Of a DNA stretch of 64,000 nucleotides, positions 1 to 52,611 are shown one piece after another; position 1 is the stretch's first letter; every line of letters starts with the position of its first letter. Made by a program: the position numbers and the translations under genes. Below the pieces are notes generated by a model, which was not told the DNA's origin, searched no databases, and was given only the letters and a program-made list of their open reading frames with translations. Source of the DNA: Bolinopsis microptera (lineage: Eukaryota > Ctenophora > Tentaculata > Lobata > Bolinopsidae); NCBI RefSeq assembly GCF_026151205.1, contig NC_087073.1:21356837-21420836 (forward strand). Direction: 5' to 3'.

Positions 1-87
1 TCAGTTTCACTTTTATCCAGGTCAGTTTCAGTTTCACTATCATCCAGGTCAGTTTCAGTTTCACTATCATCCAGGTCAGTTTCACTT
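1..87. repeat. 27-bp minisatellite at window edge
   Basis: About three tandem copies of a unit ending ACTATCATCCAGG and containing TCAGTTTCAG. The repeat runs into the first visible exon of copy A. Each unit contains TTTCAG-like sequence, so it may supply several candidate splice acceptors. It may alternatively be partly coding. Confidence 0.7.
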
Positions 88-1656
88 TCATTCTTATTTG
101 AGGAGAATTGCGCAGAAACAGATCTGCCAGATAGGTGTTAGGCTTATTCGCATTTTTCATATGATTAGTTTAATACTTTAATAGTTGGATTGTCGCCATA
201 TGATATAAAATCTTTCAGTTGACGTTAGGATTATTCGAGATAGTAATAACAGATCAAAAGGATACGGATTTGTGGAGATGGAACCATCAGGGAGGGGGAG
301 TATTGAAGTGACTCAAATACTTCAGCAGGTTAGAATTTCGTTTTTAGTTTGAATTTCCCTCTCAGGTAAAGTTGCGGTGGTTTTTGACCAAGGTGATAAG
401 GTCGTCTTTACAAAACATTGAGCCACTTATTGTCGCTATTTGATCAATCTTTTAAATTATTTCCATCTTGTCAGAGGTATTTCAAGTTTGGAGAATCAAC
501 TATACTGTTTAAGCCAGCGGTTCGTGCAAGAAAGAAGGTATGAGAGTTCTGTTTATTTATTTGGCGAATTACGTATTTGCGCTTTGATTCTGTCATTAAC
601 TTCTTTCCAGATGTTTACAGTTACTTATAATGAATAATGATGCTTTGAAAACGTTCCAAACTTTCAGGGGATTTTCATTCTGCTAACTGTGTACTTTCAG
701 TCTGGTATCTCAGTGACGAAGATAATATCAGTAGCTGACGTCTTTGATCCAGACTCCGAGGAGGTCCACAGTCAGTCTTCAACTAGTTCTCAGAAACTCC
801 AGTCAGATCACAGTCAGTCTTCAACTAGTTCTCAGAAACTCCGGTCAGATCACAGTCAGTCTTCAACTAGTTCTCAGAAACTCCAGTCAGATCACAGTCA
901 GTCTTCAACTAGTTTTCAGAAACTCCAGTCAGATCACAGTCAGTCTTCAACTAGTTTTCAGAAATTCCAGTCAGATCACAGTCAGTCTTCAACTAGTTCT
1001 CAGAAACTCCAGTCAGATCACAGTCAGTCTTCAACTAGTTTTCAGAAATTCCAGTCAGATCACAGTCAGTCTTCAACTAGTTCTCAGAAATTCCAGTCAG
1101 ATCACAGTCAGTCTTCAACTAGTTCTCAGAAACTCCAGTCAGATCACAGTCAGTCTTCAACTAGTTCTCAGAAACTCCAGTCAGATCACAGCCAGTCTTC
1201 AACTAGTTCTCAGAAATTCCAGTCAGATCTAAAGATTGATCTTCCTGCAGAGTACTGGAACACCCTTTTTACCTGTCCTACATTACCACAGCACTACTTC
1301 TATCTCTCTGTCCGGACATTCATGGTGAGTCATTTAGTGTAATTTCCCTTTCAGAGGTTTAATTCTCTTAACTTTTCCAGAAGGTTAGGAAGGAGGAAAC
1401 TAACACTCCTTCATCAACATGAACCATATTTCCTTAATGTTCCAGTGAAATAATCTTCACACTTTCACACTCTTTCTCCTATCAGGGAGTTGACGGGAAT
1501 TACTACCATCACTTTGTGCCCGCTCTGATTCCCAAAACAGATCACCCTTTCTACAAACAACATATCATCCCCTGCATTCCTACTGGATCCTCGGTTACAT
1601 TCTCTAACTTATCCAACCCTTCATCTCAACCCGGTACCCCTTACTGGAATCAGTGA
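1..1656 (+). CDS. DAZ/Boule-like RRM protein, copy A (5'-partial)
   Basis: Predicted RNA-binding protein of the DAZ/Boule type; the family acts in germ-line translational control (family knowledge). Exons read by eye: end of an exon at about 134, then 219-328, 475-537, 701-1324 and 1486-1656 (TGA), all phase-compatible with GT/AG borders. The second half of an RRM is clear: DVRIIRD, RNP1 KGYGFVEM, then ILFKPAVRARKK, matching the DAZ-family IFKPAxRK strand. The tail has VTKIISVADVFDPD, homologous to copies B-E, followed by eleven 14-residue repeats (767-1228), and ends TPYWNQ like the PYWNAPN end of the others. The N-terminal exon(s) are off-window or hidden in the minisatellite at 1-87. Its intron after ILQQ is shared with copy F but absent from B-E. 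Exon borders are inferred, not confirmed by transcripts. Confidence 0.72.
767..1228 (+). repeat. Coding minisatellite, 11 x 42 bp (14 residues)
   Basis: Eleven in-frame copies of HSQSSTSSQKLQSD lie within the 624-nt exon of copy A. Variation is limited to S/F at position 8, L/F at 11 and Q/R at 12. The array is perfectly in phase, Ser/Gln-rich and likely disordered. A parallel open frame (VSLQLVLRNSSQIT) is a by-product of the periodicity. Confidence 0.93.
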
Positions 1657-2253
1657 AGTTACAGTGATGTTGGAAACAGGAATTAAATGACTTTTAACAT
1701 TAACTTGCATCGCCTCTGGAATTTACCCAGGCAGTTCAAGTGTTTTTAGATTTATTTTTAAATGTATATAAGCATTAAGCAGGATTTTTCACAATTATAT
1801 TTTTCACGAATGAAACCATTTCGTATTCTTATATATTTTCATTTTGATTTATATTTTTGCTGTTGTATGCTAAGGTATATCTTATTTATTTTATTTAATA
1901 TTCTCGAGTTTGAATTTAAGGAACATTTGCTAAATCCTACTGACAGTTACCCTTTTGATTATTCATTATTAATTTAAGTTTAACTCTCATGGAAACTTTT
2001 TAATCTCAATTATATTTAGAATATTTAATAAATTTCCCAATCGTGTCGTCTCTACTGTTTTCATGACAGTCATATGGTTTTCAAAACTCTACTACCAATG
2101 ATTGAAATTTAACAAACATCTACTTTTATTCTTTTCAGGTTTACCTCTTGAATCTATCTTGACAACTAAACTGCATATGTTACACAGAAATTTTAGATTT
2201 AAAATTCTAAACCATGAACTAACCCAACATTCCTTAGTTTAGCTAACAAGATA
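1657..2253. other. Intergenic spacer between copies A and B
   Basis: AT-rich and without a supported gene. From about 1848 the sequence (TGCTGTTGTATGCTAAGG and onward) is homologous to the spacers before copies C, D and E, so the left edge of the segmental duplication lies near here. Just before copy B there is a CCTTAG/TTTAG run ahead of the ATG, a possible acceptor. Confidence 0.6.
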
Positions 2254-3263
2254 ATGAGTAACACAGCACCAACCCCGTGTGTTTTATACAAGGACAGAGT
2301 GTTCGCTGGTAATCTAACTACTTTCATTGATGAGGAGGACATCCTCACTTTCTTGTGGGAACACGGATTTGCACCAAGTTAGTATTGCACTTGTCGGGGG
2401 GGGGGGGGGGGGGGGGGGTACAATAATGTAGCTTTTAGCCGGTACTTTAGAGTTATAACTGGTGACCATGTTAAGTATTGACTTATTGTTTAGTATCCGA
2501 CTATTGCATGTATTAACTCATATTTCCTACCACTAGAGGATGCTAAGATAATCAGAGATAGAAGGGGAGTGTCCAAAGGTTACGGATTCGTAGACATGAG
2601 GAGCGACAAAGAGGGCGAGAACCAAACACAGGAGCTTTTGAAGCGGAGGGCAATGTTCTATGGAGACCAAACTATTATCTTTAAGCCTGCTTACAGAAAA
2701 TCTCCTTCCTCCCAGGTTTCAGTCTATTTCTGTTTTTATTCTACCATTGGGCGCCATAAATTATAACTAACAACTTTGTACTATTTAATCTTAAGATGTG
2801 ACCATAACACCGAACTACCCAGCAGTCCCAAGAACTGGTATTTACAAAAGTGATATCCTCCTCGGAACTGTTTGACCCTGAAGCGGAGACTGATGGTTCA
2901 GAAGGAACCCCTCCACCCACTCCACCTAACACGTGTCCTTGTTGTGCTTGGCCCTGCGACTCTTTTGCTGGATTATCTCTCGCTTCAACACCGGTTAGTT
3001 CTATTTGCATTTAGTTTGACTTTCTTAGATGTTTCGCCAACTTTCAGTCAAATTATTTATTTGTTGAAAGTTGATATTGAAGACATCTCATGCAACATTT
3101 TGTGAACTAGTTTCAGCAATATTTAAGTCTGACAGTTAATCCTGTTCTCCAGAGTCAGTACCAACAGAACCAGGCACCTTCCTTTCAGTTCCCTCCTTAC
3201 TACTTCCCTCTTGTTACCTACCAGCCCTCTTCAACACCTCCTTATTGGAACGCCCCTAACTAA
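2254..3263 (+). CDS. DAZ/Boule-like RRM protein, copy B
   Basis: Four exons: 2254-2377, 2537-2715, 2823-2993, 3153-3263 (194 aa). One RRM covers about residues 13-100: RNP2 VFAGNL, then KDAKIIRDRRGVSKGYGFVDM with RNP1 KGYGFVDM, then TIIFKPAYRK. Spacing and wording match the DAZ/Boule RRM (family knowledge: germ-cell mRNA binding in the cytoplasm). The C-terminal half is low-complexity: acidic SSSELFDPEAETDGSEGT, Pro-rich, a CPCCAWPC cysteine cluster, and a Tyr/Pro/Gln tail ending PYWNAPN. Intron 1 holds a G run of about 20 at 2397. An AATAAA lies at 3364-3369, about 100 nt after the stop. The splice model keeps frame in every copy. Confidence 0.82.
2397..2418 (+). repeat. Poly-G tract in intron 1 of copy B
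   Basis: Uninterrupted G run of roughly 20 nt just downstream of the exon 1 donor. The same site in copies C, D and E has shorter runs (about 10, 9 and 14), so it is a length-variable homopolymer and a potential G-quadruplex on the sense pre-mRNA. Confidence 0.9.
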
Positions 3264-4348
3264 ACAGTAACTTTAACCTCCCTTCAGACTGGTTATTTTA
3301 ATGATAGCCAACATTGTAGATTTATTTTAACCTTCATTTTGCCACGAACCACCGCATCGGTGAAATAAATTCTGTAATTTATCATTTCACTAGAATTTGA
3401 TGTAGGACAACTTCTAAGTTTCAATAGGACTATCTGCTGGTTAATAGCCGCCTTAGGATTATTCTTTGCTAATGTAACACTAATACAATGATTTGTGTCT
3501 CACTTGCCTTTTTGTTCATTTCTAGTATTAGAATTATGATTTCTTTATTTTCATGGTGTATTTCGACTAATTCTAAAATTTACGTTTATTTTATGGTGGG
3601 TTTAATTTTATAACACTTAACATTTATTTGATAATTTTCTGGACGAGAACTTTTAAATCGAACATTATAGGTGTCATTACTAAATTTGACGACGGTTTTA
3701 TGAAACTTATTTAATTCTTCACATTTTTCTAAGTTAAAACCTTCAGGGGACTGCTTAATAACTATTTTATTTGATTGTATGTCGAATAGTTTAAAGTATC
3801 AGAAGATTCATGGTTACTATTACATATTACTATTCTTATAATATAGATACATTTATTGAGTAATTTAACAGTATTTTTATATAGATGATTTAGCGGAAGG
3901 GTTAACCGTGATTCGTCATAATTTATATTTTTTGCTGTTGTATGCTAAGGCATATCTTATTTATTTTATTTAATATTCTCGAGTTTGAATTTTAGGAACA
4001 TTTGCTAAATCCTACTGAAAGTCACCCTTTTTATTATTCATTATTAATTTAAGTTTAACTCTCATGGATAAGAATGTTCATGCTTGAACCTTTTTAATCT
4101 CAATTGTATTTAGAATATTTAATAAATTTCCAAATCCTGTCGTCTCCACTGTTTCCATGACTATCATATGGTTTTCAATAATCTACCTACCAATGATTGA
4201 AATTTACCAAACATCTACTTTTATTCTTTTCAAGTTTACGTCTTGAATGTATCTTGACAACTAAACTGCAAATCTTACTCAGAAGTTTTAGATTTAAAAT
4301 TCTAAACCATGAGCTAACCCAACATTCCTTAGTTTAGCTAACAAGATA
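3264..4348. other. Spacer between copies B and C
   Basis: AT-rich, without a supported gene. It contains the copy B polyadenylation signal and is duplicated almost base for base at 5354-6442. TTTAG and CCTTAG motifs lie directly upstream of the next ATG. Confidence 0.7.
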
Positions 4349-5353
4349 ATGAGTAACACAGCACCAACCCCGTGTGTTTTGTACAAGGACAGAGTGTTCG
4401 CTGGTAATCTAACTACTCTCATTGATGAGGAGGACATCCTCACTTTCCTGTGGGAACACGGATTTGCACCAAGTTAGTATTGCATTTGTCGGGGGGGGGG
4501 GTACAATAATGTAGCTTTTAGCCGGTACTTTAGAGTTATAACTGGTGACCATGTTAAGTATTGACTTATTGTTTAGTACCCGACTATTGCATGTATTAAC
4601 TCATATTTCCTACCACTAGAGGACGCTAAGATAATCAGAGATAGAAGGGGAGTGTCCAAAGGTTACGGATTCGTAGACATGAGGAGCGACAAAGAGGGCG
4701 AGAACCAAACACAGGAGCTTTTGAAGCGGAGGACAATGTTCTATGGAGACCAAACCATTATCTTTAAGCCTGCTTACAGAAAATCTCCTTTCTCCCAGGT
4801 TTCAGTCTATTTCAGTTTCTACTTTTCAGTTTTATTCTACCATTGGGCGCCAGAAATTATAACTAACAACTTTGTACTAAATCTTAAGATGTGACCGTAA
4901 CACCGAACTACCCAGCAGTCCCAAGAACTGGTATTTACAAAAGTGATATCCTCCTCGGAACTGTTTGACCCTGAAGCGGAGACTGATGGTTCAGAAGGAA
5001 CCCCTCCACCCACTCCACCTAACAAGTGTCCTTGTTGTGCTTGGCCCTGCGACTCTTTTGCTGGATTATCTCTCGCTTCAACACCGGTTAGTTCTATTTG
5101 CATTTAGTTTGACTTTCTTAGATGTTTCGCCAACTTTCAGTCAAATTATTTATTTGTTGAAAGTTGATATTGAAGACATCTCATGCAACATTTTGTGAAC
5201 TAGTTTCAGCAATATTTAAGTCTGACAGTTAATCCTGTTCTCCAGAGTCAGTACCAACAGAACCAGGCACCTTCCTTTCAGTTCTCCTCCTTACTACTTC
5301 CCTCTTGTTACCTACCAGCCCTCTTCAACACCTCCTTATTGGAACGCCCCTAA
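4349..5353 (+). CDS. DAZ/Boule-like RRM protein, copy C (frameshifted C-terminus)
   Basis: Exons 4349-4472, 4620-4798, 4916-5086 and 5246-5353 mirror copy B. The RRM is intact (VFAGNL, KGYGFVDM, IIFKPAYRK). In the last exon the copy B run TTTCAGTTCCCTCCTTAC has become TTTCAGTTCTCCTCCTTAC, one base longer. The last roughly 26 residues are therefore read in another frame and end in ERP-stop instead of PYWNAPN, at nearly the same place. The Tyr/Pro tail shared by B, D and E is lost while the RRM is untouched. The product could still bind RNA but lacks the conserved end. An assembly or base-calling error cannot be excluded. AATAAA is retained near 5458. Confidence 0.75.
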
Positions 5354-6442
5354 CTAAACAGTAACTTTAACCTCCCTTCAGACTGGTTATTTTAATGATA
5401 GCCAACATTGTAGATTTATTTTAACCTTCATTTTGCCACGAACCACCGCATCGGTGAAATAAATTCTGTAATTTATCATTTCACTAGAATTTGATGTAGG
5501 ACAACTTCTAAGTTTCAATAGGACTATCTGCTGGTTAATAGCCGCCTTAGGATTATTCTTTGCTAATGTAACACTAATACAATGATTTGTGTCTCACTTG
5601 CCTTTTTGTTCATTTCTAGTATTAGAATTATGATTTCTTTATTTTCATGGTGTATTTCGACTAATTCTAAAATTTACGTTTATTTTATGGTGGGTTTAAT
5701 TTTATAACACTTAACATTTATTTGATAATTTTCTGGACGAGAACTTTTAAATCGAACATTATAGGTGTCATTACTAAATTTGACGACGGTTTTATGAAAC
5801 TTATTTAATTCTTCACATTTTTCTAAGTTAAAACCTTCAGGGGACTGCTTAATAACTATTTTATTTGATTGTATGTCGAATAGTTTAAAGTATCAGAAGA
5901 TTCATGGTTACTATTACATATTACTATTCTTATAATATAGATACATTTATTGAGTAATTTAACAGTATTTTTATATAGATGATTTAGCGGAAGGGTTAAC
6001 CGTGATTCGTCATAATTTATATTTTTTGCTGTTGTATGCTAAGGCATATCTTATTTATTTTATTTAATATTCTCGAGTTTGAATTTTAGGAACATTTGCT
6101 AAATCCTACTGAAAGTCACCCTTTTTATTATTCATTATTAATTTAAGTTTAACTCTCATGGATAAGAATGTTCATGCTTGAACCTTTTTAATCTCAATTG
6201 TATTTAGAATATTTAATAAATTTCCAAATCCTGTCGTCTCCACTGTTTCCATGACTATCATATGGTTTTCAATAATCTACCTACCAATGATTGAAATTTA
6301 CCAAACATCTACTTTTATTCTTTTCAAGTTTACGTCTTGAATGTATCTTGACAACTAAACTGCAAATCTTACTCAGAAGTTTTAGATTTAAAATTCTAAA
6401 CCATGAGCTAACCCAACATTCCTTAGTTTAGCTAACAAGATA
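5354..6442. other. Spacer between copies C and D
   Basis: Near-duplicate of the B-C spacer, with no supported gene. It carries the copy C AATAAA near 5458. Confidence 0.7.
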
Positions 6443-7450
6443 ATGAGTAACACAGCACCAACCCCGTGTGTTTTGTACAAGGACAGAGTGTTCGCTGGTA
6501 ATCTAACTACTCTCATTGATGAGGAGGACATCCTAACTTTCCTGTGGGAACACGGATTTGCACCAAGTTAGTATTGCATTTGTCGGGGGGGGGGTACAAT
6601 AATGTAGCTTTTAGCCGGTACTTTAGAGTTATAACTGGTGACCATGTTAAGTATTGACTTATTGTTTAGTACCCGACTATTGCATGTATTAACTCATATT
6701 TCCTACCACTAGAGGACGCTAAGATAATCAGAGATAGAAGGGGAGTGTCCAAAGGTTACGGATTCGTAGACATGAGGAGCGACAAAGAGGGCGAGAACCA
6801 AACACAGGAGCTTTTGAAGCGGAGGACAATGTTCTATGGAGACCAAACCATTATCTTTAAGCCTGCTTACAGAAAATCTCCTTTCTCCCAGGTTTCAGTC
6901 TATTTCAGTTTCTACTTTTCAGTTTTTATTCTACCATTGGGCGCCAGAAATTATAACTAACAACTTTGTACTAAATCTTAAGATGTGACCGTAACACCGA
7001 ACTACCCAGCAGTCCCAAGAACTGGTATTTACAAAAGTGATATCCTCCTCGGAACTGTTTGACCCTGAAGCGGAGACTGATGGTTCAGAAGGAACCCCTC
7101 CACCCACTCCACCTAACAAGTGTCCTTGTTGTGCTTGGCCCTGCGACTCTTTTGCTGGGTTATCTCTCGCTTCAACACCGGTTAGTTCTATTTGCATTTA
7201 GTTTGACTTTCTTAGATGTTTCGCCAACTTTCAGTTAAATTATTTATTTGTTGGAAGTTGATATTGAAGACATCTCATGCAACATTTTGTGAACTAGTTT
7301 CAGCAATATTTAAGTCTGACAGTTAATCCTGTTCTCCAGAGTCAGTACCAACAGAACCAGGCACCTCCCTTTCCGTTCTCTCCTTACTACTTCCCTCTTG
7401 TTACCTACCAGCCCTCTTCAACACCTCCTTATTGGAACGCTCCAAACTAA
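6443..7450 (+). CDS. DAZ/Boule-like RRM protein, copy D
   Basis: Exons 6443-6566, 6713-6891, 7010-7180 and 7340-7450 (194 aa), with the same phases as copy B. The RRM motifs VFAGNL and KGYGFVDM and the strand IIFKPAYRK are intact, and the tail ends PYWNAPN. Exons 1-3 are almost identical to copy C; exon 4 lacks the extra base of copy C. The position equivalent to the copy B/C AATAAA reads AACTAA, so a different polyadenylation site must be used if the gene is expressed. Role is inferred from the DAZ/Boule family only. Confidence 0.82.
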
Positions 7451-8517
7451 ACAGTAACTTTAACCTCCCTTCAGACTGGTTATTTTAATGATAGCCAACA
7501 TTGTAGATTTATTTTAACCTTGATTTTGCTACGGACCACCGCATCGGTGAACTAAATTCTGTAATTTATCATTTCACTAGAATTTGATATAGGACTAGCG
7601 TCTAGCTGCTGGTTAATAGCCGCCTTGAGATTATTCTTTGCTAATGTAACACTAATACAATGATTTGTGTCTCACTTGCCTTTTTGTTCATTTCTAGTAT
7701 TAGAATTATGATTTCTTTATTTTCATGGTGTATTTCGACTAATTCTATAATTTACGTTTATTTTATGGTGGGTTTAATTTTATAACACTTAACATTTATT
7801 TGATCATTTTCTGGACGAGAACTTTTAAATCGAACATTATAGGTGTCATTACTAAATTTGACGACGGTTTTATGAAACTTATTTAATTCTTCACATTTTT
7901 CTAAGTTAAAACCTTCAGGGGACTGCTTAATAACTATTTTATTTGATTGTATGTCGAATAGTTTAAAGTATCAGAAGATTCATGGTTACTATTACATATT
8001 ACTATTCTTATAATATAGATACATTTATTGAGTAATTTAACAGTATTTTTATATAGATGATTTAGCGGAAGGGTTAACCGTGATTCGTCATTTATATTTT
8101 TTGCTGTTGTATGCTAAGGCATATCTTATTCATTTTATTAAATATTCTCAAGTTTGAATTTTAGGAACATTTGCTAAATCCTACTGAAAGTCACCCTTTT
8201 TATTATTCATTATTAATTTAAGTTTAACTCTCATGGATAAGAATGTACATGCTTGAAACTTTTTAATCTCAATTGTATTTAGAATATTTAATAAATTTTT
8301 CAATCGTGTCGTCTCTACTGTTTCCATGACTATCATATGGTTTTCAATAATCTACCTACCAATGATTGAAATTTACCAAACATCTACTTTTATTCTTTTC
8401 AAGTTTACCTCTTGAATCTATCTTGACAACTAAACTGCATATGTTACACAGAAATTTTAGATTTAAAATTCTAAACCATGAGCTAACCCAACATTCCTTA
8501 GTTTAGCTAACAAGATA
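7451..8517. other. Spacer between copies D and E
   Basis: Homologous to the two spacers before it but more diverged. No supported gene. Confidence 0.65.
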
Positions 8518-9537
8518 ATGAGTAACAGAGCACCAACCCCGTGTGTTTTGTACAAGGACAGAGTGTTCGCTGGTAATCTAACTACTCTCATTGATGAGGA
8601 GGACATCCTCACTTTCCTGTGGGAACACGGATTTGTACCAAGTTAGTATTGCACTTGTCGGGGGGGGGGGGGGGTACAATAATGTAGCTTTTAGCCGGTA
8701 CTTTAGAGTTATAACTGGTGACCATGTTAAGTGTTGACTCATTGTTTAGTATCCGACTATTGCATGTATTAACTCATATTTCCTCCCACTAGAAGACGCT
8801 AAGATAATCAGAGATAGAAGGGGAGTGTCCAAAGGTTACGGATTCGTAGACATGAGGAGCGACAAAGAGGGCGAGAACCAAACACAGGAGCTTTTAAAGC
8901 GGAGGACGATGTACTATGGAGACCAAACCATTATCTTTAAGCCTGCTTACAGAAAATCTCCCTCCTCCCAGGTTTCAGTCTATTTCGGTTTCTACTTTTC
9001 AGTTGTTATTCTACCATTGGGCGCCAGAAATTATAACTTAAAACCTTGTAATATTTAATGTAATAAGAGGTGACCATAACACCGAACTCTCCAGCAGTCC
9101 CAAGAACTGGTATTTACAAAAGTTATATCCTCCTCGGAACTGTTTGACCCTGAAGCGGAGACTGATGGTTCAGAGGGAACCCCTCCACCCACTCCACCAC
9201 CTAACAAGTGTCCTTGTTGTGCTTGGCCCTGCGACTCTTTTGCTGGATTATCTCTCGCTTCAACACCGGTTAGTGCTTTTTGCATTTAGTTTGACTTTCT
9301 TAGATGTTTCGCCAACTTTCAGTCAAATTATTAATTTGTTGAAAGTTGATCTTGAAGACATCTCATGCCACGTTTTGGGACTAGTTTCAGCAATATTTAA
9401 GTCTGACAATTAATCCTGTTCTCCAGAGTCAGTACCAACAGAACCAGGCACCTTCCTTTCAGTTCTCTCCTCACTACTTCCCTCTCGTTACCTACCAGCC
9501 CTCTTCAACACCTCCTTATTGGAACGCCCCTAACTAA
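8518..9537 (+). CDS. DAZ/Boule-like RRM protein, copy E
   Basis: Exons 8518-8641, 8793-8971, 9095-9268 and 9427-9537 (195 aa). It is the most diverged of the four tandem units: GFVPK replaces GFAPK at the exon 1/2 junction, MYYGDQ replaces MFYGDQ, and exon 3 has one extra proline codon. The frame is kept throughout and the tail ends PYWNAPN, so selection on the reading frame is likely. RNP2 VFAGNL and RNP1 KGYGFVDM are intact. The AATAAA of copies B/C reads AACTAG here. Confidence 0.82.
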
Positions 9538-10626
9538 ACAGTAACTTAAACCTCCCTTCAGACTGGTTATTTTAATGATAGCCAACATTGTAGATTTATT
9601 TTGGCCTTGACTTTGCTACGGACCACCGCATCGGTGAACTAGATTCTGTAATTTATCATTTCACTAGAATTTGATATAGGACTAGCGTCTAGCTGCTGGT
9701 TAATAGCCGCCTTGAGATTATTCTTAGTTAACACTAATAATATGACTTGTGTCTCACTTGCCTTCGTGTTTATTTCTAGTATTATAATTATTATTTCTGT
9801 ATTTTCATGGTGTATTTTAACTACTTTTATTTTAAAATTCTATAATTTATGTTTATTTTATGGTGGGTTTAACTTGATAACACCCAGTAAACTTAGCATT
9901 TATTTGATAATTTTCTGGACGAGAACTTTTAAATCGAACATAGGTGTCATTACTAAATTTGACGGTCTTATCTTATTTATTTAATTCTTCAAATTTTATT
10001 TAAGTTAATCTGCAAGAGAATTGCTAAATAACTATTTTAATTGATTGCATGCCAATTATTTTGAAGAATCTGGAGATTCATGGTTACTATTACATATTAC
10101 TATCTTAGAATATAGATGCATTTATTGAGTAATTTAACAGTATTTTTATATAGATGATTTAGAGGAAGGGTTAACCGTGATTCGTCATTTACAAATGTCA
10201 AGCTTCTGGCATGAATACCAGAAATTTCCAATTCTATCTTTTAGCTCTTGAAAATTTTAAAATGTTTACATCGTCAAAAAACAAAATACATTGTCGACCA
10301 AATAAAAAGTTTTCGACATGCCAAAATCAAAATATGAAGAAATTTCGAAATTGTGGTTTCCCGACCTATCATCTTATCTCTTCAAGTCTATTTTAAAGAT
10401 TATATTCATAAAATCATCCACGTATTCAGCAAATTTATATGTGTTTTACTCTCGTCCACATTATAAATACAAGATAATTTATTAACCAGCTGGTGTCAGT
10501 GATAGCCTATATTGTTTTATCGTTAGCGAACCTGAACTCGCACTACCCAGGCTACTTTTCAAAACTAGGAACCAAATTTAGCTAATATGTGCTCATCATG
10601 CTCAATTGTTATTTCTCTTAGCTGTA
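9538..10626. other. Spacer between copies E and F
   Basis: The last unit of the 2.09-kb duplication decays across this stretch and unique AT-rich sequence follows from about 10.2 kb. No gene is supported. CTCTTAG lies four bases before the ATG of copy F, a good splice-acceptor context. Confidence 0.6.
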
Positions 10627-13600
10627 ATGATGGAGACGGCTGCAGATTCTACTTCTAATGAAGATAATGGATATATGAACCGTGTGTTCATAGGTAGCTT
10701 ACGAAAATCGGTAAGAAACCAAACGGGCCCCCCCCCCCCCCCCCAAACGTTGTCATGAAAGTAGTTTTGTTATTTTTTAAATAATTTGAATATTATGTAT
10801 TAAGAAATATGTTACTAAAAATAGCAGGTTTAATCAGAATATTTAAATACCTGAAGATACTTATTACAAGTTGAATTTTTTTCGCTCTGGCGCAAATTAT
10901 AAATTCCTCAGATATTTGTACATTCCTCAGATAATGGAGGAACATGTCAGGGGGTTCCTCAAGAGTAAAGGCTACAACGTCGGTATGTTTATTTGTTTAG
11001 ATTAGTCGTTTTTCTAATTGCTGTGTGTTTCCGACCGGATGATTTATATTGTCACTGTTTACTTACAGTGTATATTGTTTGTAATTTTCCGCCCGTTTTG
11101 CTACACAGCAACGCTGATTATTTGAACATGATCAGTGATCACGGACCTAATCTCTGATTGAATTCATCACACCAGAAGATACAGTTTTTCCAGTTATGAG
11201 TTTGATTGTCCTCGATTTGTTCGCTTATAATTAGTTTTGAGAACAAGTAAAACTATAAATTCTGGTCCGGGATCCGGGTCTCGGAAAGTGGTAAGAATAA
11301 ATAGAAAATATTTTTTTTGTGTTTATAAACACAAAAAAAATATAAATGGAATATGTAGTTTTTTGTACTTTTTGGGTTTTTTTCAGTTTTTTTCACCTTT
11401 TGTAATAACAACAATAAAAAGTAATAAATAATGTGAAATGCAATTTTGTTTTTTCGTCGTCAGTTTTGCCTCGATCTTCGGAGGAAACTTCAGTCATTTC
11501 TCTTTGTGATGTTTGCATAAGCAGCTTATATCAGTTTCCGTAGCGTCCTTGGACTTTAAGTTTCCTTTTTTATTCTCTAAAGACCTCTTCATGTCCTGGT
11601 CATGGGGTTCATGTTCATGAATGGAATGAACTGTGGGTTGGTTCCACTGAACAGATCGTCGAAATCTGCCCAGGAAGCCTCAGTTGGCCTCAGCCGTTCT
11701 ATGGTATCACGGACAAAAGTCTTTAACATCTTTGATGATGCAGTAAGACTGTCTCCCAACGAGGTAGTCCGACTATCGACTGCGTACGCAGCTCTTCGGA
11801 AATTCAATTTTCTATTGAAAGAGTTCCTAATCTTCGTTCGGAAACTCTTCTTCCTTCTTCGATTGGGGAGCAAATTAAAGGAAGGCATGTCTTTAGTCTC
11901 TTCACAACTTGTGAAGGATTCGGTCCAATTGCAACCAGCATATCCAAGAACCTCTTCTGTATCTTCTCCAATAAATCCTGGAAGAGCGAAGGCGCCATAT
12001 CTTTCCTCGCGAGAGTTTGATCCGGGAGATAGGGCGGGAACCGAGAAATCGGGTTCGATGTTGATGCATTCAACCTCTGTGATCTCGTAACTAGATCTTT
12101 TGTTGGAGAGTGTAGAGAAAACCATTTTAAATGATTTAAAATAGTTGTAGGAGTTGTCTTTTCAAGCGTATGAATGTGGAAATATCAAAATTGATAATTA
12201 GCACGTGCGATGTGTCCTATTACAGGGGATTAGTAGGGGATCAATAGGTTACCTAGCAATGTCGCCCACATTCCTAACTAGCCTGCGCAAAGTTATTTTT
12301 CAAGATATTCTGAATTAAATTATTATTGGCGCGCGGCGCTGAACCGATCAATTAAATCGTTAATTTCACCATGTGTCGTATCCCACTAGGCACTAATTGC
12401 AATTGATAGCATATTATTTCGAGTTAGTATTACTACTTTGCACAGATCCGTGTCACATCAGATAACATAAACTTTGAGGTAGTCCGGACTAAAATTGCAC
12501 GGAAAATCGATTAAAAGTACCATCACGAAGTGAGAGTCTTCACTCAGTGTGTTAAAACATAATGCTTTGTCGACGTTTCGGCTACATGCCTTTGTCATAG
12601 ACAGGACGTATTGATAACTAACATAGGTAGCTCAATAAATGTAATAGATTTGTAGTGTTGTAATTAGTTTAAAACAAACAGTTTGTCCATATTCGGAGTA
12701 CGTATATATTTCACAAACTTACGGGTTCGGACAAGAATTGTCTACGGTCAGCTTTCCGTATCAGTCACATTTTTCGGTCAATTATATTCAGACAAGATTT
12801 GTTTTTCAACAAATATCAAATCGGACAAATAATTCTATGGAGTCGAACACTAATATTTATTGCAAAAGCACCAAAACGATGGCGGGTCTGAGCCACCATA
12901 CACCACAAGAATCAGCTGTTAAAAAGCACTTTAACTGCAGAGATTTGATCAGCCGGTCGCAAGTAATTACGTGCAAGTAATCACGTGCAACAGCTGACGT
13001 TTTACTTGATCTGTGGGGGAGCACCCCTGTCACGTGAACAGTTGGTCCCCTGCTCCAAGTTAAAAGTTTTTATATCCACTTTTGATATGAGCGGAACATT
13101 ATATAAAAGCGGAACATATATTTAAATGCCTGTTTCATTCCCGTTTAATCTTAGAAAGGACAAAGTTCATAACCCTCATAAGAACTACTCAACCGTCTTA
13201 AATAAGTCTAAACAGATAAACCCAGAAATCTTACTATAAGTCTAAACAACAAAGTTCCAATTCAGAATTACGTTCAGTTCATTTTATAATCTTAACCTGT
13301 CCTCAGAGGATGTGAAGATTATACGAGATGTGAACGGACAGAGTAAAGGATACGGGTTTGTGGATCTGGATAGAAGTGCACGAGGGGAGCTTCAAGCTAA
13401 TCATCTTCTTAATCAGGTAAAACATTACACGAGGGGAGCTTCAAGCTAAACATCTTCTTAATCAGGTAAAACATTACACGAGGGGAGCTTCAAGCTAAAC
13501 ATAATCAGGTTAAACACTCCAGTTTTCCCGATTATGTTGCTGAATTAAGAAACAGAAAGACTATTAAAGTACAATGTCTTATCTTACTATGTATAAAGCT

Positions 13601-14486
13601 GAGACTATAATATATCTAGTAAGACTTTGCTGACCCAAGTCTGTCAATTAGAACAAAACAATACTCAAATTAACCAATAAAGAGAATCTGTTTAGCTGTC
13701 AGCAGTGCTTAGTACTGGCAACCGTGTCGTGCTAAATTATCAAGACGTCAGTGTCATATTTTAACTCAGGAAGGCCGGAAGTTGAACTCTGCTCTCTTCG
13801 ACTTCACTGTCCCTTAATATTACATATTTCCTTGGATATAAGATATCCAAAAAAGTAACACCTTCTTCAACAGTAACATATCTTAATAAAATGTTGAACT
13901 TGATCGTCTTTGGGCTGGAGCCTGGAATTAATATTATGGTGTGCAGGCACTAATGAAATTTTGAGTGTTAATAATAAACATCTTGTTCTATTTCAGTACA
14001 GAATGTGGTATGATATAAACATTAAAGAAGGGTTCTTTGTTGTATTCAAGTCAGCCTACCGGAAAACCAAAGCCCATCCGGTACAAGTTGTGAAGGAGAT
14101 CTCCACCAACGAGATTTTTCAAGAGTCTTTTACCATGTTTGTAAATTTCAGTTTCATTCATTACGTCTTTCTCATTTCTGAATCTCCTTATCGACAGTCG
14201 AGTGTCATTTTGCATTTGGTCCTTAACACAGATAGAAGTGGAAGCTTAACAAAAACTATTCAATTTCAGTTACCAGACCGATGAAGCAAAGGATGAACTA
14301 CACCAGAACGTCCCTAGTGTAGGGATTCAAAAGAAACCACCGCAGACTCCGCCCACTCTCCAACCAGTACCTCACTACTTGAACCCGATGTATTATCAGC
14401 AATACCAATACCATCTATCTGAATACTATCAATTTGAACAACCTGTGTTTTGTATGTACAACTATAATCGAAACGCTGGAGCTTAA
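10627..14486 (+). CDS. DAZ/Boule-like RRM protein, copy F
   Basis: Five exons: 10627-10710, 10931-10982, 13307-13416, 13997-14136, 14270-14486 (603 nt, 200 aa, frame kept). The RRM spans about residues 18-105: RNP2 VFIGSL, IMEEHVRGFLKSKGYNV, EDVKIIRD, RNP1 KGYGFVDL, then FFVVFKSAYRK. The tail is Gln/Tyr/Pro-rich (PHYLNPMYYQQYQYH). The 110-nt exon 3 corresponds exactly in length to that of copy A, whereas B-E fuse it with the next exon. Exon 4 needs a GTTTGT donor at 14137 to stay in frame; a GTAAAT donor four bases later would give an immediate stop. Intron 2 contains an opposite-strand ORF. The end of exon 3 with its donor is triplicated. The gene is the most diverged of the cluster. Confidence 0.72.
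10729..10744. repeat. Poly-C tract
   Basis: C run of about 16 nt just after the exon 1 donor of copy F. It is the reverse-strand counterpart of the G runs found in intron 1 of copies B-E. Confidence 0.85.
11589..12125 (-). CDS. Hypothetical 178-aa protein nested in intron 2 of copy F
   Basis: Intact ATG-to-stop ORF on the strand opposite its host, fully inside the 10983-13306 intron. I do not recognise it. The N-terminal half is mixed and acidic (SYEITEVECINIEPDF, FIGEDTEEVLGY); the centre is strongly basic (NRRRKKSFRTKIRNSFNRK); the C-terminal third (SSKMLKTFVRDTIERL) could form an amphipathic helix; it ends Met/Pro/Asn-rich (FIPFMNMNPM). There is no signal peptide or membrane segment. Overlapping open frames on both strands reduce certainty, but length and composition differ from the surrounding AT-rich intron. 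A real small intronless gene is plausible, not certain. Confidence 0.5.
   Translation of the reverse strand: MVFSTLSNKRSSYEITEVECINIEPDFSVPALSPGSNSREERYGAFALPGFIGEDTEEVLGYAGCNWTESFTSCEETKDMPSFNLLPNRRRKKSFRTKIRNSFNRKLNFRRAAYAVDSRTTSLGDSLTASSKMLKTFVRDTIERLRPTEASWADFDDLFSGTNPQFIPFMNMNPMTRT
13380..13510 (+). repeat. Triplicated exon-end/splice-donor segment
   Basis: A unit of about 49 bp (ACGAGGGGAGCTTCAAGCTA to AATCAGGTAAAACATTAC) occurs three times, the last one shortened. The first copy is the 3' end of copy F exon 3 with its donor; the next two repeat the same exon end and donor inside the intron. Confidence 0.88.
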
Positions 14487-14765
14487 ATATGGAGTTTGAA
14501 TTTTGAATTTCGTCGCCGACTTGAGAAAGCAACCCGATGTAACTTGAAAATTTTTACATCTCTGGCCCAAAATCTGACTGTAAACATCTTGTAATCAGTA
14601 AGTAATGTGCTTTGCGCTAACAAAGGTTTTTTACTTTCATGGCTTAATACCATTATGAATACCGATAATAGAATATCTATACCTATGAAACTCGTATTTT
14701 ATAGACACAGTCGTGTATATTTATTCCTATTAAATATTCAATGTCATAGATATGCGTTTCACTTG

Positions 14766-15601
14766 TATCACGTCGTGACACCCATTGAGCATTGTCATTT
14801 CACCTAGTGGTGTATCGGGGCAACAGCCACGATACAGCACGCACTCGTGCTCGGCGGGCCTACAACTTGAAGCAACGTTTCACAAAGAAAATGTGAATTT
14901 ACTTTAGTACTTAAAATTCTTTAAGAAGTCAAATTTTAGACCAACATTCAAGGCACGGTTGTTGGAGTAGAGTGGGGTTTTGCATCATCAGCCCTGGACC
15001 TTTTAGTGTTCCACGTGCCATCCTAGTCCTCCTTTTACATTTTGGTTTTACTGGGTGGCGTCCAGCCTGTCACTGTCAGTGTCACTCAGCCGCATCTTCA
15101 GAAAAAGCCTGAGGTCCCCACTCCCCAGGTAATCCTCTTATTAGACTTGATCCCGTCGATCGTGTGTGATTTGATTGTGCTAGAAGTAGTAAAGACGACG
15201 GGTTCAAATAACCATAATAATAAAGCATAATCAATAATCATAGGTCATTTTATTTCGGATGATGATTAATCTTTAAATCACACTACACTCGACTAATTAC
15301 CTGGGGACCTCAGGCTATTATGTACATAAACATAATATGTAATAGAGATTCGGCGGAATGACAGGCTGAACGCGGCCCAGTAAGACTATAACTATTTCCA
15401 ATTTCGTCGCGTGACTAATACTAATAGTAATATGTAATTCAGTAATTCAGTACTTAACTTTTCATTGTCATACGTTGTATGACCCGCTGCGCACGAAGTG
15501 CGCGGCTCCCCCTGTAGCGTCGAAGACGCTACAGTACGCACTATAGTGAAGCGCACTATATGCTATAGTGAAGCGACCGTGGGGGTCACCACGTGATACA
15601 A
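14766..15601. mobile_element. Fold-back/MITE-like element with CACGTCGTGA ends
   Basis: The left end reads GTATCACGTCGTGACACCC and the right end, reverse-complemented, GTATCACGTGGTGACCCCC. Inside the ends lie GC-rich subterminal palindromes (CGCACGAAGTGCGCGG, GCGTCGAAGACGC). Related ends occur at about 15940 and 49268. No transposase is visible, and exact limits and target duplication could not be fixed. Confidence 0.55.
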
Positions 15602-15934
15602 ACTTTTCATTGTTTAATTTGTAATTGTCTCCGCAGCACATTATTATTTATTATACTTGCGCGCTTCGCTATTCTACATTTGTTCTAAGTTGTAGCGGAG
15701 CTACGACCTGGAAGTGGAACAAATTGGCATTGTTAATCATATCATTTGTCAAGCTCAAACATTAAACACGTCCTTTAGATGAACACAGAGATTAAAGCAA
15801 AGTTTCACCTACCCATGTGCTTGCGGGCGCGCTTGTTCCACAAATAAATAAGAATGAAGAAATGCAAACGAGATAGAGCAAAAACAAAGTAATTAATTGT
15901 TAAAGGAGTATACCATACTGTATTTGGTATTGTC

Positions 15935-17050
15935 AATTATATCACGTCGTGACCCCCATTGTCATGTAACTTGATGAACTGTATCGGGGTGGAAGCCATT
16001 GTTAATGGTCTGGCCCGGCGCGCGCTACTTCGTAGCACTTGCCGTCGAGAAGAAAGCGGCGCGCGCTTATACTTCGAAGAAATTTAGACGAGTGACATCC
16101 GTCAACCACGATACAGCTGCGCACTCGTCCATGTTGTCACTCTTGCGCGGCGGACCTATATACAACGTGAGGCAAAGTTACTATACCATATACTGTACTA
16201 TATAGGCAGCTTAGCGCGGGCTCCGTGGAAGATTTGACAGCGCACAGATCTGTTACATGTTATGAGTTACGTGTTATATGTCATGTCGCTCTAACCAGAG
16301 CCCTCTCGCTTGCAGTAGCGCGCGACCGTTGTGAAACAAGCGCGTCACGCAGTACGCGTAGGCACATGGCTATGTGAATGTTATATGTTGATTTTGTGTT
16401 ACCGCTCATTTCGCTAACTGTTAGTGTTAGATCAAATTTATCACTCATAGATTTTTTTGAACGCGCGCAGCGCGCGCACTGGGTTTATTTTTATTTAGCA
16501 ATTTATTTAATTGTATTCATGCTGTGAATTCAGAATTGCCTCAGACTAGTAACATTAGTACATTGTACTCTATTTTTTAAAGTATATAAGTATTACCTAA
16601 AACATGTTTAAGTTCGTTGAGTGTTAATAAGTAATTGTGCAGTGTGGCTGTTAAAGATTTTTAAACACTTTAATATTTTATTGAATATAGTTGATTGACG
16701 ATGTCAATCCATTTCGATCGTTGCTCTGCGAAGCAAAGCAAAGATCGACGATGCGAAGCAAAAATGCTAGTCAAATAGAATGTTTGAACCACTGAAAATG
16801 CCGGTCGCGGTTGACTGTTCACTGTTGGGTGTAAGTGGTTGTAAGACGCTGCCTGACCCACTGTTTTATCGTTGTAGGTTTACAACCTACCAGGACGCGC
16901 GCCGAGTTGGACTCGTCGACGGCCAAACAGATATTTTACGAGTATCACCCGTTAATTTTATTGTAGCCGGGCTGGTGGAGAGGGTTGGGGTGCAACGTGA
17001 AGCCATACAATTTGCAATTGAGAGTGCAGAGGTAGTTTAAGTTTGCGCGC
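15935..17050. repeat. GC-rich interspersed repeats shared with 48.4-49.6 kb
   Basis: Shared blocks include the CGGCGCGCGCTACTTCG segment near 16015 (again near 49493), the GACGCGCGCCGAGTTGGACTCG segment near 16893 (again near 48971), and the GATTGACGATGTCAATC block near 16693, which recurs inverted near 48785. These are dispersed, rearranged non-autonomous repeats. Confidence 0.65.
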
Positions 17051-17916
17051 CGCAAATCAATTCAGAGTGATCCTGTGTGAGTTCCTCCGCACGCAACCTT
17101 GAAAGACCGAGGCTTCATGTGCTTCAACTTTGAAATGAACATACGGCCTGTGCCGCCACTGTCGTGGCCTGTAACGGTTGTTTCATTACCTGCACTGCAT
17201 ATCTTTTGATCAAATTAGTTCGTTTATATCTTGTTTCAACTTACAATTGAAATTCAACAACTATTTTGCTCATTTGAAAATATGATGCCCTTAAACCACA
17301 GTGCTATCGTTTAAGTAAAGTCAAATAACAAATCTAATGATCATTATACTAAACGGTTAATGATACAGAACTGATGCGGCAAGTATTTTCACTGTGTATA
17401 CTCAAAGCGATACACAGGATACATTAAAACTCAAGAAGCAATCACCATTCTACAGAACGATACTGTTTTGTTTTTTGCTTTCCTACTTTCTTTTGAGTTG
17501 TCATAATATTATCACCAATTGATACATGCTTTTACCCTCGTGGAACCAGTAATATTAAAACTGTAAACTTGTATTCTCTACTGTATTATGTGCAGCAAGT
17601 AAGTATTACTAAGTAAAGGCAAATCGACATAGGTTACTTAAAGAAACCGGTGTCTTGTGTCGATTTGTATGCCTTTATCATAGGATACAGCTTTGTGCCA
17701 CAATTGTCAGTGAAAATAAGTTGCTAATATTGCTTTCGCTAACCGTCTTTTGTTCATATTAGAGTGCTATTTTGCGGACAGCATTAGTGACTTCATCTGT
17801 CATCACTTTTTTTATATTAAACGTTTTCACTCGATCCTCAACACTTTTTAAATAATATGATTCCAGCAGCCATGAGTTATGTAGTGATCTGATAAAGTAA
17901 AGATTTATGTAATGTA

Positions 17917-20900
17917 ATGGTGGACGCAGCTGTCATAAAAAAGACACAAGACTCGCTTGGAAAAGTTATTAAAAAGCCCCCTCTTACAGAAAAGTTATTA
18001 TCAAAACCCCCCTTCAGATACCTTCATGATATTATTTCAGAGGTTTGTGTTCATTTCCCGTTCATTTGTTCATTTCCCGTTCATAAAACCGGGCAGCCTA
18101 GGAATTCTAGCAATAATATCCATTTTTGAAATCTCCTCATTCCCTATTTGTATGATCATACCTTCACTTCCATTGTAGAGCACACAACTTTATAAACAAT
18201 TCTCTATCTCCAGGTAACGAAAAGTACCGGTTTTCTTGAAGGACTATTTGAGGACAATGAAAAAGTTGCCGCCAATGTCAAAGTAAGTTTGAAGCGTTTT
18301 GTAGATCCCTGTTTGAAAATGTTTCCATTTCCCTCTTTGATCAATACTACCGTGCCCAGTCTGGTATTTAATTTAATTTTCTTTACCAAATAATTTTTCC
18401 ACAGGATAAAGAGTCCAAGATACAGTACTTACAAAAAGCAATAGATGCCGTAGGTGAGTCTCTCTCGCTCTAAAACACGCATTATCACTTATCAGCTCAT
18501 CTACAGCGTCACACAGCGTGTAACCATCATGCATGACATGTCACGAGGACACCTGTGTTACATGCATACATGTCCACATGACAAAATATTAGCGAACATC
18601 TGTCATTTGATGTTCGTTCATTGTCTGCTAAAAGATTAAAAGCTGCAGCATCGTGTTTTAATGAGCTCAGACTTATCATGATTCATGATACATCTTCATT
18701 ATTCATCGATGACATCATTTCATTTAAGCCAATATATTTCTGATTTAAGTATCGTTTTACTTCCCTACCTCTATTTATAATTTGATACCATAAAATACTC
18801 GTTAAATCTAAGTTTTACCAGATCAGACGTTCTATTATATATTCTATTAATAGAATATATATATATTATATAATTATATATTGATTATTGAAACAAATTC
18901 AAACAAAGATCAAACAACTAAGCAATCGTTTGTAATAGGGTGTAACAAAATAACCTACCTACATAATAATAATATACTGATAATGATAGGCTAGGGGAGT
19001 GACTCAAGTTATGATAATCCTAACTAATAGATTAATTAATTAATCGCTGTTAAATTTCAAAGTAGACTTGCGCTACCTCCATAATATTAGCCACGTCGTC
19101 AATATGAAAAATAAATCACTTACTTACACTAAATTTGTCAACATGGTAATCTGCATTAAACTGAATTAAACGCAAACTACATATTTACAACATACAAATT
19201 AAATATTAATACTTTTAGGTTTGGTGTTAGGATCTCAACTCGGAGTTCGTCCGTCTAAAATAATTGCTGGACAAGAACCGGAGAAAACCAACGAATTTCT
19301 GCAATACTTGGGCAGATGTGCAGCTAAAGGGGTACGTATTCTTGAAATTTCGTTGTGGATTCAATTTAAAAACAAGAGTGGTGAATTTACTTGCACCTTG
19401 TATTGTACACCCGGCTTAGGTGAAACGAGTAACGCTGCTACCACTTATTTTGATTCATTTAAAGAAGCATAAATTTGGAACCTTCAGGCTGATAACGAGG
19501 TTGTGAAACGCGTGAAAAAAGGAGAAAAACCGGGGAAGAAATCAAAGTGAGTTTCAAGTTGGGCAAATAGCAGTTAAAGTGAATGGTGGCATGAGCTGTG
19601 GGTATAAATTAAGTTTCACGTGCTAACCATCGTGCTTCCATAAAATTGTAAGGTTCCATTTCTTCATAATTAGCAAATAGCAAATTAACAGTATTGCTGT
19701 TTCAAATCTATTTGCAGTGCAGCACCCACTCTGGGATTTTAGCACCTTTAGCACTTTAGCCAAGTGCTCAGAAACGTGCTCAATCCAAGCTGGACCTAAT
19801 AATAAAGCCTCGAGTATTGTGGTACACACACTCAAGTTCGACACGCACTCTAGATCGACACGTACTGTAGTTCGACAAACCCTAAAGTTCAACTTTGTCG
19901 AACTAAAGTGCGCTACCTGGACTTTAGTTCGACACGTACTTAAGTTCGACAAAAGAACTTCGACTCAGGGATGAAAAAGATATTCATAAAGATTCAGATT
20001 TATTCAAAAAAATATTTTTTAATTCAGATTATCTTCCAATTTAGTTTTTTATCGAACAATTTTGAGTCACATATAAAATTTGATAACATTCCGTGAGCCA
20101 GAAGTAAAGGTAATAGTAAATAGTAATAGTAGAGGATGATGTTCGATACGACTACTATAATACCTTCATGCGAGCTTGTGATCCGATAGCGTGCAGCAAC
20201 AGTATATATAAGTCGTATTATACAGTATTATATAAGTCGTATATAAGTATTTAAACAGTTATATAAGTAGCACCAGTAAATAGCCGTTGGATCACAAGCA
20301 GAAACTATTTGTCGAACTAGAGTACGCTACCTGGACTCTAGTTCGACACGTACCGAAGTTCGACAGGGCTGATTTCTTAAGGGGGCAGGGGGTCTTTATG
20401 AAATTTCTCTCGAAATTGATTTTATAGTTGTTTCTGATAGAGGGGAGTGATATCTACCAGATGTTTTTGGTCCCATGGAAAATGTTTGTTCCTAGCCGAA
20501 ATTATTGCCGGTCAAAGGTCAGCGATCATGTGTAATTGTAATGCGCGAGCGATTTTCAATCGCGCGCCCTGAAAATCGAGTCTAAAAATCTATCTTCTCC
20601 TACATTTTTTGAGCAATCACCTTGAAACTTTCAGGATATGTTCTAAGAACCATTTAGAAACTTCTGGTCAAAAAACGAGGTCCAAGATTTTCAAAATCGA
20701 ATAAAAACTTTTCTAAGGCCTATTTTAAAATTCTGATAGACCAGAAGTTTCTAAATGGTTCTTAGAACATATCTAGGAAAAAAATTTTTCCATGGGACCA
20801 AAAACATCTGGTAGATATCACTCCCCTCTATCAGAAACAACTATAAAATCAATCTGGAGATCCAACGATATGATTTTCCTGAAACTTTCTAGATAGTAAG

Positions 20901-51440: not shown

Positions 51441-51888
51441 TCAGCGTAGGGCTTTTCGTTTTTGATTTTACAAATGACAAAGCAACTTTTAATGAATATT
51501 AATGGAATTATCGGATATTTATAATTCAATATGTATTGATTCTTCTGTGGAAAATAAAAATTGTATTTTACTTAAAATTGTATTTTACTTATGAATTTTG
51601 TTATATTATAGATTGTAAGTAAAGGATAGAATTTAACATCTGTTTCTCTAGAATTTGTTTCTCTACATTATGCATGTTTGTGATTGAAAGACTTCATTTA
51701 GGATTAGTTTGATGTACTAAAATGTAACAATATGCCTTACTGTGTTAATCTTTTGTTCTGGTTCAATTCGCTTCTTGGTTTAGTTTGCTCCAAGTTTGCA
51801 ATTACGATACACATTAAAATTGAGCTTCCTAATCACTTCATACAATATTGAACAAGCTTTTAAACTAAAAATCATAACAGGACTAATT

Positions 51889-52611
51889 ATGATGAAGATA
51901 TCAAGACTTGTGTCAAGGATTGTCCAGTATCGCAAAGTCTCCAGGAGCATCAGCTCGTCTTGTCCTCATCTCGCTGGAAAGTCTACAAATGACAACTATG
52001 TCACAGTCGTGAAGCTACCAGCTCACAAAATGAGTCTCATAAAAAATTATCAGAAGATTTGGAATTGGATAATTCCAGGATGCTGTGTCGTTAACATAGC
52101 CTCTTCCGGTTTATGGCAGGTTCTAGAACCATCAGTGTTAGGGATATATTCAAATGTTGCAGCTGGTGCTTCATTTGTGGTACTCCCTGGTATTGTGACT
52201 TCTTATTATGCTTCCAAGATACTGGGACAAGTCAAAGTGGATGCTGGGTCAGGAAAACTCATTGTATCCCATTTAGATCCATTTGGAGACCGTATCAATA
52301 AACAATTCAATGCTTCAGAATGCCACTTTAAAATGGCAGGCCTACTTGACATCTGCTATTTACCAGATGGGAAATACTTTGTTATTTCTCGACACTGCTC
52401 TTCAGAAGAGAGGGAATTGCTGCAAAGTGTAACTGCAAATCAGCCAGGCCGTACTGATGGTTTTGGGCCTGACAAAAAGAAAGTAAGGTTGTATACTTCA
52501 CTTATATTTAGTGCAACAGCGGGGGTATTCATGTTGTGTTTAATCAGGTATATGTATGAGGAGTATTATAGAGTTCAATCTGTTGAGTCTGAGGAAAGGG
52601 TTGCTGATTAA
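51889..52611 (+). CDS. TMEM186-like mitochondrial membrane protein, copy 1
   Basis: 240 aa, uninterrupted. The basic, Ser-rich N-terminus (SRIVQYRKVSRSISSSC) looks like a mitochondrial presequence. Two hydrophobic segments (IIPGCCVVNIASSGLW and SNVAAGASFVVLPGIVTSYY) precede LGQVKVDAGSGKLIVSHLDPFGDR, which resembles the TMEM186 block of strands ending VSHLxFWGxR. A third hydrophobic stretch (SATAGVFMLCLIRYMYEEYY) lies near the end. TMEM186 belongs to the complex I assembly (MCIA) machinery; assignment rests on this pattern and is tentative. The Met at 51889 was chosen over an upstream in-frame ATG because copy 2 starts at the same place and both have an AG/GAC acceptor-like junction just upstream. 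Confidence 0.66.
   Translation: MMKISRLVSRIVQYRKVSRSISSSCPHLAGKSTNDNYVTVVKLPAHKMSLIKNYQKIWNWIIPGCCVVNIASSGLWQVLEPSVLGIYSNVAAGASFVVLPGIVTSYYASKILGQVKVDAGSGKLIVSHLDPFGDRINKQFNASECHFKMAGLLDICYLPDGKYFVISRHCSSEERELLQSVTANQPGRTDGFGPDKKKVRLYTSLIFSATAGVFMLCLIRYMYEEYYRVQSVESEERVAD

Follow-up and report, generated by a model that had tools for sequence, protein, structure and literature searches.

Genomic organization of the RRM gene cluster

The window, a 64,000-nucleotide stretch of the Bolinopsis microptera genome (C2:21,356,837–21,420,836; 264.65 Mb and 232 contigs in total), was analyzed for the genes at its left end. Thirteen contigs of 15–26 Mb account for 97.51% of the assembly, and the remaining 219 make up 6.6 Mb. 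In keeping with a ctenophore genome, one of its glutamate receptors scored 412 bits against the Mnemiopsis receptor ML032222a, possibly a paralog, compared with 231 bits for a kainate-like receptor (4zdm) and 147 bits for receptors of vertebrate type. Six RRM genes, all on the plus strand, form a cluster at C2:21,356,538–21,371,322 (Table 1; negative positions lie upstream of the window start). An earlier note on this DNA had reported six such genes in a row, four of them on duplicated units of about 2.09 kb. The six genes lie on the same strand at the coordinates given there, and the units were recovered with lengths of 2,095, 2,094, and 2,075 bp, the fourth having been cut by us at 2,091 bp. 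The span of the cluster in that note, positions 1–14486, has the correct coordinates but not the true start, as the first exon of gene A lies outside of the window. Neither the 10 kb upstream nor window positions 14,487–20,000 yielded a seventh member.

Table 1. Features of the RRM gene cluster, in window positions
Feature	Position	Strand	Description
Gene A	exon 1 -298..-196 (RNP2); 219-328, 475-537, 701-1324, 1486-1656 (including stop)	+	spliced model; 356 aa; intron phases 1,0,0,0
27-bp repeat, gene A intron 1	1..90, extending upstream to about -200	+	
42-bp in-frame tandem repeat, gene A	767..1229	+	11 copies; Tandem Repeats Finder and translation
Four tandem units	1834-3928, 3929-6022, 6023-8097, 8098-10188	+	outer boundaries chosen by us
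U1	exons 2254-2377, 2537-2715, 2823-2993, 3117-3263	+	206 aa
U2	exons 4349-4472, 4620-4798, 4916-5086, 5210-5353	+	205 aa
U2 recombination point	5026..5065		U3-like before, U1-like after
U3	exons 6443-6566, 6713-6891, 7010-7180, 7304-7450	+	206 aa
U4	exons 8518-8641, 8793-8971, 9095-9268, 9391-9537	+	207 aa
Gene F	exons 10627-10710, 10931-10982, 13307-13416, 13997-14140, 14277-14486	+	199 aa
49-bp tandem repeat	13379..13502	+	2.5 copies; spans end of gene F RNP1 exon

Gene models are our own and were made from genomic sequence without transcript support. Every modeled intron in the six genes is bounded by GT and AG, all splice sites are intact, and reading frames are open across four to five exons. 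One base change near the C-terminus of U2 puts its last 21 amino acids in a frame unlike that of U1, U3, and U4. In tblastn comparisons with permissive settings, E values were 4e-27 to 2e-46 among the first three exons of the units, 8e-7 to 3e-10 between the units and genes A or F, and 2e-11 between A and F; unit exons matched gene A at 2e-8 and 8e-7. These values, the GT–AG introns and open frames, and the excess of synonymous over nonsynonymous change reported below indicate that resemblance within the cluster is not due to chance. A protein search of the genome with a cluster query also returned weak matches at C2:8999939 (E 0.055) and C7:5008004 (E 0.29).

The 42-bp repeat in gene A encodes an 11-fold repeat of 14 amino acids, with variants of HSQSSTSSQKLQSD. 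Each copy of the 27-bp repeat in intron 1 contains a donor-like CAG/GTCAGT and an acceptor-like TTTCAG; this repeat keeps the exon 1 frame open, and variable splicing could be possible. The 49-bp repeat in gene F duplicates a splice donor. A minus-strand frame of 190 aa (window positions 11592–12161) lies within an intron of gene F and gave no Pfam hit at E ≤ 0.01.

Motifs and domain content

The motifs listed in the earlier note were all recovered. RNP2 reads VFAGNL in the units, LFVGNL in gene A, and VFIGSL in gene F, RNP1 contains KGYGFV(D/E), and the IFKPAxRK-type strand occurs as IIFKPAYRK, ILFKPAVRARK, and VVFKSAYRK. The RNP1 region of the units, DRRGVSKGYGFV, agrees with the published consensus DRAGVSKGYGFV at 11 of 12 positions. 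The Boule RNP1 published in 2010 is DRAGV(I)SKGYGFV(I); genes A and F and a separate gene described below (BOL) have diverged ahead of SKGY, and BOL reads KGYCFV. All seven genes (cluster and BOL) have GN or GS in RNP2, whereas the published Boule signature contains GG (PNRI(V)FVGG; Xu et al. 2010). Across five aligned rows, 19 RRM columns are invariant, including the RNP2 Phe, the RNP1 Lys, Tyr, and Phe, and the PAxR Arg. Each of the four proteins scanned (U3, A with its repeat shortened, F, and BOL) has a single N-terminal RRM, seen as one Pfam RRM_1 above the cut-off. No Pfam match to the 24-aa DAZ repeat was found in these four at E up to 10, using a library whose inclusion of a DAZ-repeat model is unconfirmed.

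Placement in the DAZ/Boule clade

The top three PDB matches to the U3 RRM were chains of mouse DAZL (42.2, 41.7, and 41.7 bits), followed by nucleolin (35.8 bits). Among single-RRM chains, DAZL likewise scored highest with BOL (38.8 bits) and with a five-row RRM profile (51.6 bits); the only chains ahead of it were multi-RRM chains without a passing single stretch, from poly(A)-binding protein (BOL and profile) and nucleolin (BOL). Gene F scored higher against hnRNP A2/B1 (35.4 bits) than against DAZL (27.8 bits) and was placed by its relatives in the tree. In a search of the genome with mouse DAZL, three retrocopies of BOL ranked first, third, and fourth among 49 places, and an RBM24/38-like exon ranked second (36.9 bits). 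The unit exons reached only 25.6–26.7 bits, below many other RRMs, because they are split by an intron.

A tree of 35 RRMs separated U1, U3, U4, A, F, BOL, one retrocopy, and mouse DAZL from 27 others with a branch of 100/97, and the cluster genes formed a single clade (98/96). The 27 are RRMs of the same genome (26 of the 30 listed loci and locus L008). In a 36-row tree that included human and fly Boule, values were 96/95 for the family and 97/94 for the cluster. Both trees rest on 79–80 columns and have long branches. In the best tree, the cluster is nearest to BOL; AU p values of 0.447 and 0.412 leave the branching order of cluster, BOL, and DAZL unsettled. The earlier note had assigned the genes to the DAZ/Boule clade and proposed an RRM phylogeny as a check, with grouping outside that clade as the adverse outcome; the RRMs instead joined mouse DAZL in both trees. 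The sequence comparisons therefore support membership of the cluster genes in the DAZ/Boule clade. We refer to them as DAZ/Boule-clade genes and do not call them boule in the narrow sense because RNP2 contains GN or GS where the signature has GG.

One further locus, C11:14463050, was considered as an additional Boule gene and rejected, as its sequence resembles RBM24/38 and it groups with other RRMs in the tree. The tree rows called RBM24-like and hnRNP-A/Musashi-like carry labels assigned by us.

A separate Boule-like gene and its retrocopies

A search of the genome using an open frame from contig C160 identified BOL, an intact Boule-like gene of eight exons that encodes 323 aa. It lies on the minus strand of the same chromosome as the cluster (C2:20,776,044–20,785,591), at a distance of 571 kb. 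A phase 0 intron after RVFIGxLxxx is found at the exact same position in F and BOL, and another phase 0 intron, after LLxQ/ILQQ, is common to A, F, and BOL. These two shared positions support common descent of the cluster and BOL. A phase 1 intron before D(V/A)(K/R)IIRD occurs in A, the units, and F; the middle RRM intron of BOL is in phase 0 and is located 11 bases further on. A phase 0 intron follows the PAxR strand in A, the units, and BOL, in columns that are near each other and not identical. There are two introns inside the RRM in A, three in F, three in BOL, and one in the units. The 2010 Boule signature calls for at least two between RRM-coding exons, at conserved junctions.

Three intron-less retrocopies of BOL were identified on contigs C160, C5, and C11, with exon pieces that are 93–100% identical to BOL, apart from one short 3′-UTR piece in the C11 copy (81%), which also has part of the tail absent. 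The C5 and C11 copies are interrupted by stops, start some 100 bases before the ATG, and extend into the 3′ UTR. There, both (loci L003 and L004) are joined to a tRNA-like SINE head, so labeled by us from its sequence, at about the same point; the chimera therefore probably has a single origin, with later copying or duplication. The C160 copy has an open frame of 324 codons that starts inside BOL exon 1, without the BOL start codon, and a dN/dS of 0.37 when compared to BOL. A further fragment, covering 144 bp of the last exon, is located at about C2:17,000,888–17,001,025 (positions 280–423 of locus L007, C2:17000600–17001300) and is 95% identical to the retrocopies and 91% identical to BOL. 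No retrocopies of the cluster genes were among the matches listed in three protein searches of the genome. Given how retroposition works, heritable processed copies suggest that the BOL gene is transcribed, and its RNA spliced, in cells feeding the germ line.

An acceptor-like TTTTTCAG immediately precedes the C160 retrocopy (positions 1753–4068 of locus L002). A second copy of the retrocopy's tail lies 1.3 kb downstream, and a nearby frame resembles a membrane protein.

Divergence and recombination among the units

Pairs of units are 93.65%–98.94% identical. The coding sequences of U1, U3, and U4 differ by 2.4%–3.2%, with dN/dS values of 0.25 (U1–U3), 0.23 (U1–U4), and 0.20 (U3–U4); U2 was left out owing to its frame change. 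Synonymous exceeded nonsynonymous divergence in all three pairs (Fisher P = 0.008, 0.001, and 0.0007, in the same order), and purifying selection is acting between units. Noncoding sequence has diverged 2.2–3.6 times as much as coding sequence in the three pairs that include U4 and 1.1–1.4 times as much in the other three.

Unit 2 is a mosaic (Table 1). Before the recombination point, it has one difference from U3 in 1,098 columns (two gap columns), and after it, one difference from U1 in 994 columns (one gap column). The 60 sites informative between U1 and U3 fall into six runs in U2, and none of 20,000 shuffles was as low. This pattern points to a recombinant of the unequal-crossing-over kind, although a haplotype misjoin would look alike. 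In a three-unit array, one unequal exchange between U3 and U1 would give exactly the present unit order. The cluster was most likely multiplied by unequal crossing-over; copy number rests on the assembly.

Interpretation and alternatives

We read the locus as a tandem expansion, specific to ctenophores, of the DAZ/Boule RNA-binding family, with a probability of about 0.78. BOL, its retrocopies, the shared introns, purifying selection, and the recombinant unit go beyond what the earlier note described. An origin of these RRMs in another RRM group (e.g., hnRNP A/Musashi or RBM24/38), as a ctenophore family that evolves fast and has converged on DAZ/Boule in RNP1, is improbable. Such an origin would fit the absence of GG from RNP2, the long branches, the second rank of an RBM24/38-like exon in the DAZL search, and the match of gene F to hnRNP A2/B1, its best in PDB after a four-RRM chain. 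However, the 100/97 branch was obtained with RBM24-like and hnRNP-A/Musashi-like rows in the tree, the units, BOL, and the profile all have DAZL as their best match, either overall or among single-RRM chains, and similarity extends past RNP1 through the PAxR strand. Sex-linked amplification akin to that of primate Y-linked DAZ, suggested by clustered copies of a DAZ-family gene and raised as a possible function in the earlier note, deserves hardly any weight. Bolinopsis microptera is described as hermaphroditic, as are ctenophores apart from Ocyropsis in the accounts available, which makes sex linkage of the array implausible. The view that the expansion arose independently of the mammalian Y-linked array held up, with the cluster forming one clade (98/96) nearest to BOL of its own genome (order unsettled; AU P = 0.447).

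Two further alternatives bear on the array itself. Two haplotypes with different unit counts may have been joined during assembly, making the array partly an artifact and unit 2 a false bridge from U3 to U1. The U3-then-U1 structure is what a misjoin would give, and the published assembly is described as having been built from PacBio reads using wtdbg, with haplotig removal (PMC10232365). A join of haplotypes from an outbred animal should, however, leave allelic differences, of which there are almost none, and no stray copy of the array was found on other contigs among the matches listed in three protein searches. The coding differences among U1, U3, and U4 also indicate that at least three units look real, and we consider an artifact rather unlikely. 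Neutral drift in copy number, with unit genes that are redundant or dying, is unlikely and slightly more so. Unequal crossing-over suffices for arrays of this kind, and the frame change in U2 would be in keeping with decay. Against this, dS exceeds dN in every pair tested (U2 excluded), noncoding sequence diverges faster in the U4 pairs (less clearly in the other three), and splice sites are 100% intact.

Comparison with other systems and origin of the family

The ctenophore genes share with Boule (BOLL, the ancestral DAZ-family gene) a single RRM near the N-terminus, an RRM clade, introns within the RRM, and the similarity of RNP1 in the units to the published consensus. They differ in RNP2, in the DAZ repeat not being found by Pfam, in having six tandem copies and one more, and in that most cluster proteins are shorter (199–207 aa; A, 356 aa). 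Nematostella has a lineage-specific Boule duplicate in a non-bilaterian (Boule1 and Boule2, as reported in PMC2904765), but with two genes as opposed to a six-gene array and a single gene. Several DAZ-family copies are described at one place on the human Y (PMC2698988). The ctenophore array resembles that cluster in having multiple copies at one locus but has no sign of sex linkage, comes from a different ancestor, and has no DAZ-repeat expansion, with gene A having an unrelated 14-aa repeat instead.

The survey of Xu et al. (2010) recorded Boule genes in bilaterians and in a sea anemone; Trichoplax had none, and the same was tentatively concluded for a sponge. No description of a ctenophore Boule/DAZ gene was found in the literature searched, which most subscription journals lie outside of; in papers indexed for boule and ctenophore, the word was missing from the main text where this was searched. 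A DAZ/Boule gene in ctenophores would shift the origin of the family to the animal root, earlier than the 2010 survey. Gene linkage has been reported to place ctenophores as sister to all other animals (PMC10232365). If so, DAZ/Boule would have been present at the animal root, and loss in placozoans would be implied. The data suggest a germ-line family as old as animals that was multiplied independently in the ctenophore lineage.

Proposed function and a possible multiplied germ-line circuit

By analogy with their relatives, the cluster proteins are most likely germ-line translational regulators. DAZL is described as binding GUU in 3′ UTRs and stimulating translation initiation (PMC4884919). 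Each cluster protein would use its conserved RNP1, RNP2, and PAxR surfaces to bind 3′-UTR motifs of the GUU type, which are short and U-rich and include G or C. GUU-type binding is likely because the RNP2 Phe, the RNP1 Lys, Tyr, and Phe, and the PAxR Arg are invariant in the five aligned rows. The RRM together with a diverged tail could then exert translational control over gamete or maternal mRNAs, as in DAZL and Boule; partners and targets may differ among the proteins because the tails differ. Duplication would provide dosage or a division of labor among egg, sperm, and stem-cell lineages within one hermaphrodite. With the array and its one separate relative located on one chromosome, the division of labor that follows duplication of a conserved fertility regulator can be tested directly.

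The CPEB genes of ctenophores are similar to the cluster in being a tandem multiplication of a germ-line RNA-binding regulator but belong to a different family, with two RRMs and a zinc finger. Seven places with a CPEB zinc finger were identified in the genome, four of them in tandem within 16.5 kb (C7:8014619–8031153) and three elsewhere. Six CPEB1 paralogs, four of them consecutively named, are reported in Mnemiopsis, and DAZL and CPEB are described as acting together on maternal mRNAs in vertebrates (PMC10284499). Five vasa genes are also reported in Mnemiopsis. We favor a multiplied germ-line translation circuit because of these CPEB places, the CPEB1 and vasa numbers in Mnemiopsis, and the partnership of DAZL with CPEB. 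A broader scenario is offered tentatively, as possible and short of an even chance. The last common ancestor of all living animals would have had DAZ/Boule, and ctenophores would have rebuilt their germ-line translation circuit by multiplying its members, giving DAZ/Boule and CPEB clusters, both in tandem, as well as several vasa genes. Eggs, sperm, and stem cells of one hermaphrodite would each have copies of their own.

Other features of the window

A dispersed repeat at window positions 20376–20860 is 75%–82% identical to sequence in locus L004. Positions 28917–29740 contain 3.3 copies of a 248-bp tandem repeat. Two neighboring frames (51784–52608 and 53212–54003; 275 and 264 aa) look related by eye; a Pfam scan of the first gave no hit at E ≤ 0.01.
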